Origin: an uncultured Rubrobacteraceae bacterium
GTDB taxonomy: Bacteria > Actinomycetota > Rubrobacteria > Rubrobacterales > Rubrobacteraceae
DNA length: 48,260 bases
Assembly (NCBI GenBank): GCA_902806065.1
Contig: CADCVE010000020.1
Location: 1 to 48,260 of the forward strand
Direction: 5' to 3'
Positions within the stretch are counted from its first letter, which is position 1. Every line of letters begins with the position of its first letter. A program made the position numbers and the translations under genes. Positions 32,857-35,303 of this stretch are shown here, one piece after another. Under the pieces are notes generated by a model. The model was not told the origin of the DNA and made no database searches. It was given only the letters and a program-made list of their open reading frames with translations.

Positions 32857-32932
32857 TTGTCTAGCAATGCCTCGGTTAGTTGGTATCCATTCAGAAGTGT
32901 TCGGACAGGCTAAAGAGATGGAGGGAGGATCG

Positions 32933-33412
32933 ATGAGACGTTTCGGCATGGTTTTGGTGGTAGGGACGTTGCTCCTCGCGCTAACGGCGGGGGTAGCATT
33001 CGCGGCGCTTGAGTTGAGCACCTCTGGCGAGGACGAACTCAACGGTACCAAGGGAGATGACGAGGGCCAGGACACCTTGATCGGCTTTGGCGACGACGAC
33101 ATTTTAAAGGGCAAGAGCGCAGCGGACCAGCTCTCCGGTGGCGATGGCGACGATACGCTCAGGGGCGGGGGCGGTAACGACACCATGGACGGTGGTCCGG
33201 ACAACGACGAAATCTTCACGGGTCCCGGCTTCGACTTCGTCTTTGCCGAGGATGGAGAACAGGACCTCATAAACTGCAACGACGAGGGGCTCTTCAGGCT
33301 TGAAGTCGACCCGGGCCTCGACATAATCGAAGACTGCCCCAGGAGCTCGTCAAGAAGCGCGACCTCCGCCGACACCAGCGAGAACTCCGAGAACATAATA
33401 ACCAACTACTAG
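32933..33412 (+). CDS. Secreted small RTX-type calcium-binding protein
   Basis: A 159-residue protein with a signal peptide (MRRFGMVLVVGTLLLALTAGVAFA, cleaved about after residue 24). The mature chain is very acidic and carries RTX-like nonapeptide repeats, GGDGDDTLR, GGGGNDTMD and GGPDNDEIF (about 65-92), which bind Ca2+ in beta-rolls. No catalytic domain is visible, so it is probably an extracellular calcium-binding or surface protein. GGAGG 5 bases upstream fixes the ATG at 32933; an in-frame ATG at 32867 with a hairpin-masked SD would give an unusually long n-region. A terminator hairpin with a T-run follows at 33433-33457. Confidence 0.82.
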   Translation: MRRFGMVLVVGTLLLALTAGVAFAALELSTSGEDELNGTKGDDEGQDTLIGFGDDDILKGKSAADQLSGGDGDDTLRGGGGNDTMDGGPDNDEIFTGPGFDFVFAEDGEQDLINCNDEGLFRLEVDPGLDIIEDCPRSSSRSATSADTSENSENIITNY

Positions 33413-33432: not shown

Positions 33433-33457
33433 GGCTGGGGTTCTTACCCCGGCCTTT
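33433..33457 (+). terminator. Rho-independent terminator of the RTX-type gene
   Basis: GGCTGGGGT and ACCCCGGCC form a 9-bp stem (one G-U pair) with a 4-base loop, followed by TTT. It lies 20 bases after the stop of the RTX-type gene. Confidence 0.7.
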
Positions 33458-33499
33458 GCGTATCCGATTTTCGGAGTATGCACAGGTAGAACGATGGAT

Positions 33500-33541
33500 G
33501 CGCGTCCGGCGGTTTGACTACGGACGCGCGTCCGGTATACT
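33500..33541 (+). promoter_or_regulatory. Sigma70-like promoter embedded in a palindromic operator
   Basis: TTGACT (33514-33519) and TATACT (33536-33541) are separated by 16 bases, a good vegetative promoter. Perfect 9-bp arms GCGCGTCCG (33500-33508) and CGGACGCGC (33521-33529) flank the -35 box and lie in the spacer. GCGCGTCCGG also recurs as a direct repeat at 33526-33535. A repressor bound to these arms would block the polymerase. Confidence 0.65.
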
Positions 33542-33547
33542 TGGTTG

Positions 33548-33616
33548 GCTGCGTAATCGAGAAATACGTCCACAACAAGCGAGATGCTCGAACATCTAGA
33601 GCGCATCTCTTTTTTT
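33548..33616 (+). ncRNA. Predicted ~69-nt terminated transcript (sRNA or attenuator leader)
   Basis: A promoter at 33514-33541 predicts initiation near 33548, and a classical terminator ends at 33616, so a short RNA of about 69 nt would be made. No convincing ORF lies within it. The next gene is the DEAD-box helicase, 100 bases on, with no other promoter seen. The element could be an independent small RNA or an attenuator that controls read-through into the helicase gene. Inference from sequence only. Confidence 0.5.
33581..33616 (+). terminator. Rho-independent terminator ahead of the DEAD-box gene
   Basis: GAGATGCTC pairs with GAG-CG-CATCTC (two-base bulge) around a 9-base loop, followed by seven T residues. 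This is the best intrinsic terminator in the window, yet it follows no gene directly. It ends 99 bases before the helicase start. Confidence 0.75.
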
Positions 33617-33715
33617 GTGTCTTGTGCAAGTCCTCTCCCGTTGAGTGGTCGCCCATGACGTAGGCTCCTTATGGTGGCGACTACTATAAGCAACAATTGG
33701 AAGGAATAGCACATT

Positions 33716-34864
33716 TTGGTAACAAGCATTCTGCACGAGGCCCCGCGGGTCTCATTCGACGATCTATCTTTCTCCAGAGGCACACAAAGGGCCGTGGCTG
33801 ATCAGGGGTGGGACGCTCCGACCCCGATACAGGCGCTGGCGCTGCCCCCGCTTTTGGAGGGAGAGGACGTCGTCGGTCTCGCACAGACCGGCAGCGGCAA
33901 GACGGCCGCTTTCTCCATACCTCTGATCGAGGCTCTCAACCCGAAGACGCGGGGTGTGCAGGCGATAGTGCTCGTGCCCACGCGGGAACTCGCCGCGCAG
34001 GCGGCGGCCGAGCTTGCAAACCTCTCCCGCTACGAGCCGGTTCGCCCGGTCGTCCTGTGCGGTGGCACGGCGATAGGGCCCCAGATCAAAGCTCTCAAGG
34101 GCCGGGCTTCGGTGGTCGTGGGCACGCCCGGACGTATCCTGGACCACCTGAACAGGGGCACGTTGCGGCTCGGTTCGGTAAGCTACCTCGTGCTCGACGA
34201 GGCTGACCGGATGCTCGACATGGGCTTCGCGCCGGATGTCAAGCGCATCCTCTCGTACACGCCAGACGGCAGGCAGACCGCTCTCTTCTCAGCCACGATG
34301 CCGGATACAATACGCGGCATAGTCAAGCAGCACATGCGCTCCCCGCGGTGGCTCGCGGTGGAGTCCGAGGCGCCCACGGTCGATACTGTCGAACAGGTCT
34401 ACTATCGCCTTGACGGGCGTGACAAGACGCGTGCGCTGCGCTCCCTGATCGACGCCGAAGAGAACCCTCTGGCGATCGTGTTTCGCCGGACCAAGCACGG
34501 GGCGACCAAGCTACACCGCCAGCTAGAGAGAGACGGCTACAAGGCGGGCTTGCTGCACGGCGGGAAGACGCAGGCGCAGCGTAACAAGACGCTCGCCACG
34601 TTCGTCGGAGGCCGGACCCGTATCCTCGTCGCGACGAACGTCGCTGCGCGTGGACTCGACGTCCCGAACGTCTCGCACGTCGTCAACTACGACCTCCCCG
34701 AGGATGTGGAGACCTACGTGCATCGCATAGGGCGCACGGCGCGTGCCGGCAAGGACGGGGTGGCGGTAACGCTGGTGGGCGAGAACGAGATCAAGGAGTT
34801 CAACAAGATCAAACGCGGCCTGCCCGTGGAGGTGCGCGAGAGCAAGCTACCCATCTCCGCCTGA
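33716..34864 (+). CDS. DEAD-box RNA helicase
   Basis: A 382-residue ATP-dependent RNA helicase with all core motifs: Q-motif region APTPIQALALP (34-44), motif I AQTGSGKT (56-63), Ia PTRELA (88-93), GTPGR (136-140), motif II DEAD (161-164), motif III SAT (192-194), motif V ARGLDVPNVSHVVNYDLP and motif VI HRIGRTARAG. It has almost no C-terminal extension. It unwinds RNA, for example in ribosome assembly or mRNA decay, in the cytoplasm. The start is TTG 33716 (AAGGA 10 bases upstream). The upstream promoter, operator and terminator suggest attenuated expression, as known for cold-shock helicases in other bacteria. A hairpin follows at 34920-34943. Confidence 0.9.
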   Translation: MVTSILHEAPRVSFDDLSFSRGTQRAVADQGWDAPTPIQALALPPLLEGEDVVGLAQTGSGKTAAFSIPLIEALNPKTRGVQAIVLVPTRELAAQAAAELANLSRYEPVRPVVLCGGTAIGPQIKALKGRASVVVGTPGRILDHLNRGTLRLGSVSYLVLDEADRMLDMGFAPDVKRILSYTPDGRQTALFSATMPDTIRGIVKQHMRSPRWLAVESEAPTVDTVEQVYYRLDGRDKTRALRSLIDAEENPLAIVFRRTKHGATKLHRQLERDGYKAGLLHGGKTQAQRNKTLATFVGGRTRILVATNVAARGLDVPNVSHVVNYDLPEDVETYVHRIGRTARAGKDGVAVTLVGENEIKEFNKIKRGLPVEVRESKLPISA

Positions 34865-34958: not shown

Positions 34959-35303
34959 ATGAGCGAGACGAACGGCGGCGCGGGGGGTGAAGCCTGCGGG
35001 CTCTGCGGGCGGGAGGTGCAAAAGCTCACCCGGCATCACCTCGTCCCCAGGACGCGCCATAAGAACATCAAAAACAAGCGCAATAACAAGGCACTCGATC
35101 GCCAGGCGCTCCTCCAGACGGTGGGCCTCTGCGCTCCCTGTCACCGTCACGTACACGCCACGATCCCTAACAAGGAACTCGAACGCGAGTACAACACGCT
35201 CGAAGCCCTCAAGGGTCACCCCGAGATCGACAAGTTCGTCGAATGGATAAAGCGTAAGCCGCACGGCACTGCGGCGGCAAGAACCCGGCGCCGCGCTGGA
35301 TAA
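34959..35303 (+). CDS. HNH-type nuclease-fold small protein
   Basis: A 114-residue protein with the HNH/treble-clef core. CGLCGREV (Cys at about 13 and 16) provides two Zn ligands. HHLVPRTRHKN resembles the HNH first-His region (about 26-36). CAPCHRHVHA (about 58-67) supplies two more Cys and the final His. The C-terminus is basic. HNH domains nick or cut DNA, but short stand-alone forms often have unknown roles. It has no obvious restriction, phage or toxin partner here. The gene follows a hairpin after the DEAD-box gene; co-regulation with it is possible but not shown. I cannot see an SD, so the start at ATG 34959 is provisional. Confidence 0.75.
   Translation: MSETNGGAGGEACGLCGREVQKLTRHHLVPRTRHKNIKNKRNNKALDRQALLQTVGLCAPCHRHVHATIPNKELEREYNTLEALKGHPEIDKFVEWIKRKPHGTAAARTRRRAG

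Follow-up and report, generated by a model that had tools for sequence, protein, structure and literature searches.

The DEAD-box RNA helicase gene of this uncultured Rubrobacteraceae bacterium is preceded by an mRNA leader of ~165 nt (about 33548-33715), and such a leader lies upstream of the helicase in 22 of the 22 Rubrobacteraceae genomes with readable upstream DNA. In our moderately confident view, it is a cis-acting element in which transcription attenuation would be followed by sequestration of the Shine-Dalgarno (SD) sequence, with a co-transcriptional antisequestor, and it probably controls the amount of helicase made. The leader is a new, uncatalogued family of a known general kind. 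Conservation, cis-only occurrence, the terminator, the SD pairing and the complementarity of the 5' end to a loop come from sequence comparison and fold prediction, while where transcription starts, whether it terminates early, how the switch works in cells and what triggers it are what the model proposes beyond them. The features, all within the 48,260-nucleotide stretch of DNA analysed (the window), are collected in Table 1.

Table 1. Features of the helicase leader and its surroundings, with positions in the window.
Feature	Sequence	Position	Strand	Remark
Sigma-70-type promoter	TTGACT-16-TATACT	33514..33541	+	TATACT kept in most relatives
Palindrome (14 bp) in promoter spacer	CGGACGCGCGTCCG	33521..33534	none	Weakly conserved, function doubtful
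5' leader segment	GCTGC...TACGTC	33548..33570	+	Complementary to apical loop and P4 3' strand
Invariant block	TACGTCCAC	33565..33573	+	Invariant in all leaders
Intrinsic terminator	GAGATGC / GCATCTC + T7	33581..33616	+	Conserved stem
Invariant triplet	GTG	33617..33619	+	In read-through RNA, a possible partner of CAC in the invariant block
P1 5' strand	TGTGC	33623..33627	+	Pairs with 33709-33713 (single-sequence folds)
Anti-Shine-Dalgarno strand	TCCTCTCC	33631..33638	+	From folds
P3 5' strand	GTTG	33640..33643	+	Pairs with CAAC 33691-33694
P4 5' strand	GTGGTCGCC	33645..33653	+	From folds
Apical loop and start of P4 3' strand	GACGTAGGCTCCTTATGGTGGC	33657..33678	+	Target of the 5' leader segment
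P4 3' strand	GGCGACTAC	33676..33684	+	From folds
Shine-Dalgarno	GGAAGGA	33699..33705	+	Predicted paired with 33631-33638
DEAD-box RNA helicase, 382 aa	TTG start	33716..34864	+	DEAD and Helicase_C domains (Pfam)

The promoter proposed by the sequence-only reading was recovered, with TTGACT at 33514-33519, a 16-bp spacer and TATACT at 33536-33541 (10 of 12 matches). Promoter-like sites of such quality numbered two in the 4 kb scanned, against 0.6 expected. In the aligned leaders, TATACT is followed by ~6 variable bases, and strong conservation then sets in at GCTAC, where transcription is predicted to start; 33548 would be the +1 of the leader RNA. No gene was said to lie between promoter and helicase, and on the plus strand no sizeable one lies before the helicase TTG at 33716. 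No second conserved promoter was seen between this promoter and the helicase gene.

The promoter had also been read as embedded in an operator made of 9-bp arms, and this did not hold. The arms exist (GCGCGTCCG at 33500 and 33526, CGGACGCGC at 33521); they are mostly not conserved and nothing special, as the window contains 16 short-gap 9-bp inverted repeats (2-9 in shuffles). A repressor bound to the repeats at 33500-33534 would control the promoter and make the RNA folds incidental. The repeats do overlap the -35/-10 spacer, and the palindrome is exact or nearly exact in a few genomes from three genera, being exact in G051 and G013 and differing at its last base in G008. Most relatives, however, are without it, the upstream arm at 33500 was absent in the relatives compared, and no second exact copy of the palindrome occurs in the bacterium's own genome, where its near copies are outnumbered by those of the reversed control. 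A palindrome kept at orthologous promoters or common to a regulon, as a repressor operator would be, was thus not found; we rejected the operator reading and regard a repressor as highly improbable.

Twenty-one leaders were taken from the DNA upstream of the family's helicase orthologues, and the 22nd (G046) came from an RNA-model search; the 22 species are related and hence are not independent tests. All 22 leaders have a common architecture and are conserved all the way from +1, across the terminator, up to the SD, a larger part than had been described before. A DNA search matched the stretch in 14 of 41 genomes, from several genera. Built from leader and terminator, an RNA model gave one strong match per genome, always at the helicase gene, and did not find the leader outside Rubrobacteraceae when 396 genomes from the phylum were searched. 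Scanned for an exact pattern, the GTDB r220 genomes returned 15 Rubrobacteraceae or actinobacterial-bin records, R. marinus among them, and two matches in unrelated sequence that look like chance. A wider spread was rejected, as the pattern matches in Cutibacterium and Rhizobiales have no promoter, stem or downstream block and look like chance. Against the 4227 families of Rfam 15, the window gave nothing that reached the gathering score, and 33450-33750 gave nothing even at E<=10. No paper describing the leader was found in the literature searched, outside which most subscription journals lay, and the same literature yielded no description of its arrangement, a 5' end antisense to a sequestor loop with a terminator between. 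An RNA regulon was also considered and rejected, the weaker model matches (L063-L066) resembling ordinary terminators at unrelated genes. L064 401-476, L065 1501-1571 and L066 1501-1581 are canonical hairpin and U6-7 terminators next to unrelated Rubrobacteraceae genes; the family, this suggests, uses ordinary intrinsic terminators.

The first layer of control would be attenuation, with many transcripts ending at the intrinsic terminator ~70 nt past the start to give a short RNA. The hairpin previously claimed here is present (GAGATGC 33581-33587, GCATCTC 33603-33609, seven T at 33610-33616), and conservation in relatives, checked for stem and arms alike, proved real for the stem and mostly lacking for the arms. 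In the leader alignment, 97.3% of cells are paired in helix 2, the terminator stem (GAGAUGC/GCAUCUC), and the alternative pairs across species include two U-A to C-G changes. A conserved terminator between promoter and first codon, as in terminator-type attenuators, occurs in all leaders. The suggestion of an attenuator controlling a helicase is therefore well supported by the conserved stem between conserved promoter and gene, by the constant location in cis at the same gene and by the lack of a conserved second promoter between them. Since the U-run after the stem is interrupted in G003, G007 and G008 (L020, L018, L019; CTTTCTTGTG, CTTTCTT), termination may be weaker there. As to an antiterminator, neither consensus nor single-sequence folds showed a conserved pairing that excludes the terminator stem; this part could be played by a protein. 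A leader peptide was rejected, as no reading frame is conserved (there are indels, and no start codon is common to the leaders).

The new small RNA envisaged by the sequence-only reading is possible only as an attenuated by-product of this layer, and a terminated RNA of ~70 nt is indeed expected as such. Were it a functional sRNA, its unpaired 5' segment (UACGUCCAC) would target in trans either other mRNAs or the loop of the helicase mRNA itself. A layout in which a terminator follows an unpaired and conserved 5' segment is common among sRNAs, and a complementary target exists within the helicase leader in all 22 species. On the other side, no instance of the RNA was found away from the helicase gene and conservation extends beyond the terminator up to the SD, so that we judge a trans-acting sRNA distinctly unlikely. 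Its putative trans targets would be of the GTGGACGTA type near start codons.

The second layer would act on read-through RNA, which would hide its SD in a long hairpin with CCUCUCC. Each leader alone is predicted to fold into such a hairpin, in which an upstream CCUCUCC-type strand pairs with the SD, and predicted SD paired probability was 0.63-0.99 across the 22 species, so that sequestration is seen in the folds of all 22. The P3 pairing varies among species (GUCG:CGAC and others), and the hairpin is more stable than dinucleotide shuffles (mean z -2.16). As indels defeat an RNAalifold consensus, the hairpin was assessed by chimera and single-sequence tests. Native halves outdid 5'/3' chimeras made between species (mean -36.1 versus -33.0; z -4.1, p 5e-5), also when the two insert-bearing species were left out (z -2.8, p 0.003). 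A column count of SD-hairpin pairing on the alignment was not above shuffles, probably due to register shifts and indels that break columns.

The first 23-24 nt of the RNA would be antisense to the apical loop and 3' strand of this SD hairpin. In all 22 leaders the 5' segment is complementary, in collinear fashion, to the apical loop and the adjoining 3' strand through GCUAC:GUGGC, a variable middle and UACGUC:GACGUA, with a predicted duplex energy of -13.5 to -21.5 kcal/mol. On the alignment 90.6% of cells pair, a value that 0 of 500 shuffles attained and that fell to 25-68% when the partner was slid. The covariation score was matched by 3 of 500 shuffles, four pairs having changed on both sides; the ACGUC:GACGU core hardly varies and hence gives no covariation. 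Swapping leaders against loops gave a trend only (p 0.09, or p 0.19 without the core).

Partial transcripts suggest how the two pairings could follow each other. Transcripts of intermediate length had a mean of 16.2 predicted leader:loop pairs versus 3.2 with shuffled leaders, and only 4 of 1320 shuffled leaders reached the observed pair count. When the transcript ends ~21 nt beyond GACGU, loop pairing of the 5' segment is predicted in nearly all species, most weakly in G003, and the predicted ensemble flips to the SD hairpin once the 3' strand and SD emerge. The leader:loop pairing encloses the terminator stem. During synthesis, the pairing of 5' segment and loop would thus form first and act as an antisequestor (ON), to be displaced by the emerging hairpin 3' strand and SD (OFF); the level of translation would be set by how long the first fold persists. 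At equilibrium the SD hairpin is favoured at every temperature in 21 of the 22 species, leader:loop pairing being dominant in one species only, and we infer that the switch would be kinetic and not an equilibrium thermometer.

The folding predictions covered pseudoknot-free structures, so the 5' segment may alternatively dock, as a pseudoknot, onto the apical loop of the intact SD hairpin and stabilise the OFF state, control then lying with the terminator and with a protein or ligand recognising the compact structure. GACGUA and CUC, among the most conserved parts, are wholly within the apical loop, as docking would have it. GCUAC:GUGGC, however, which is kept in 95% of cells and has changed on both sides, involves the P4 3' strand and would be in competition with P4. 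We consider docking unlikely beside the co-transcriptional antisequestor that we prefer.

The gene behind the leader had been called a DEAD-box helicase, and both its domains confirm this; it scored 433 bits against the NCBIfam CshA equivalog NF053631 and so did not reach the cut-off of 646. Five leader-bearing genomes tested had one strong DEAD-domain match each (E about 1e-47 to 1e-49), at the leader's gene; other matches in them were weaker and mostly within much longer frames. Fifteen genomes had no helicase match at 1e-30. G046 gave none at that threshold, yet it keeps the leader at a contig end, and absence from fragmented genomes is hence no proof. Near-complete Rubrobacteraceae genomes without a DEAD-box RNA helicase of such type are G045, G016, G012, G010, G018, G019 and G022, and among those whose 16S could be read most are higher in 16S G+C. 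The G+C content of 16S (first 850 nt) was 57.3-59.9% with the helicase and 57.8-62.6% in near-complete genomes without it; a link of helicase absence to growth temperature, or loss with thermophily, is suggestive, with G012 as an exception and few genomes. The helicase is flanked directly upstream by an RTX calcium-binding-repeat protein (32867-33412, Pfam HemolysinCabind) and directly downstream by a small HNH protein (34959-35303), HlpB-like at 64.6 bits versus the NCBIfam cut-off of 130. A conserved operon partner was rejected, as neither gene adjoins the helicase in the relatives checked.

Cold-shock-type regulation had been thought a fitting role for the element, and it would suit the gene type, precedents and helicase absence in several genomes of higher 16S G+C, but an SD predicted to be hidden from 5 to 50°C speaks against a simple RNA thermometer. 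In an RNA thermometer, cold would move the equilibrium from an SD-hidden to an SD-open fold. Constrained energies did shift towards ON on cooling in most species, and genomes without the helicase tend to higher 16S G+C. The constrained comparison was biased, however, as leader pairs were disallowed altogether in the OFF state, and the apparent cold shift came from this unfair constraint, unconstrained ensembles being without it. In the latter the SD was about 0.80 paired throughout 5-50°C (an equilibrium prediction, kinetics being outside its scope), so that the change of SD accessibility with temperature expected of an RNA thermometer or a cspA-type leader was absent from the prediction. With leader:loop pairing dominant in just the one species, an equilibrium thermometer was rejected and seems to us very unlikely.

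Terminator attenuators and SD-sequestering leaders in general likewise have a premature terminator and an SD hidden by an upstream pyrimidine strand. The Rubrobacteraceae leader differs from this class in combining the two layers in tandem with a 5' end that is antisense to the loop of the sequestor, and neither a ligand nor a leader peptide was identified for it. The Escherichia coli cspA leader is not known to carry an intrinsic terminator. E. coli cspA mRNA is described as a thermosensor whose leader fold controls ribosome binding (PMC9947658), whereas the predicted equilibrium folding of the Rubrobacteraceae leader is not switched by temperature. In Caulobacter crescentus, according to PMC5472812, cold induction of cspA combines attenuation at optimal temperature with better translation in the cold, and rhlE, a cold-induced DEAD-box helicase gene whose structured leader is 186 nt long, shows signs of self-control. 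C. crescentus cspA encodes a cold-shock protein, unlike the helicase here (sequence relation was compared through Rfam only), and in the sections consulted no 5'-end antisequestor is described for cspA or rhlE (PMC5472812). The cyanobacterial Synechocystis crhR, also encoding a DEAD-box RNA helicase, has temperature-dependent and partly self-controlled expression; this control reportedly goes through transcript and protein half-life, and no matching leader was shown (PMC3485376).

Gene type and precedents are also the grounds on which cold or the helicase level could be proposed as the trigger of the kinetic switch. Slow refolding in the cold would favour the ON fold; the helicase would speed refolding and favour OFF, giving negative feedback. 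A self-sensing switch of this kind, in which the encoded helicase speeds the ON-to-OFF refolding, the mRNA gauges the cell's RNA-unwinding capacity and cold turns expression on by slowing refolding, is a tentative extension of the model and by itself rather unlikely. How bacteria set the level of their DEAD-box RNA helicases is poorly known beyond a few models, and here an uncatalogued leader, for which two alternative folds are predicted in 22 species, precedes the only strong DEAD-box RNA helicase of a stress-tolerant family. Should the helicase act on its own leader, that leader would sense unwinding activity directly.
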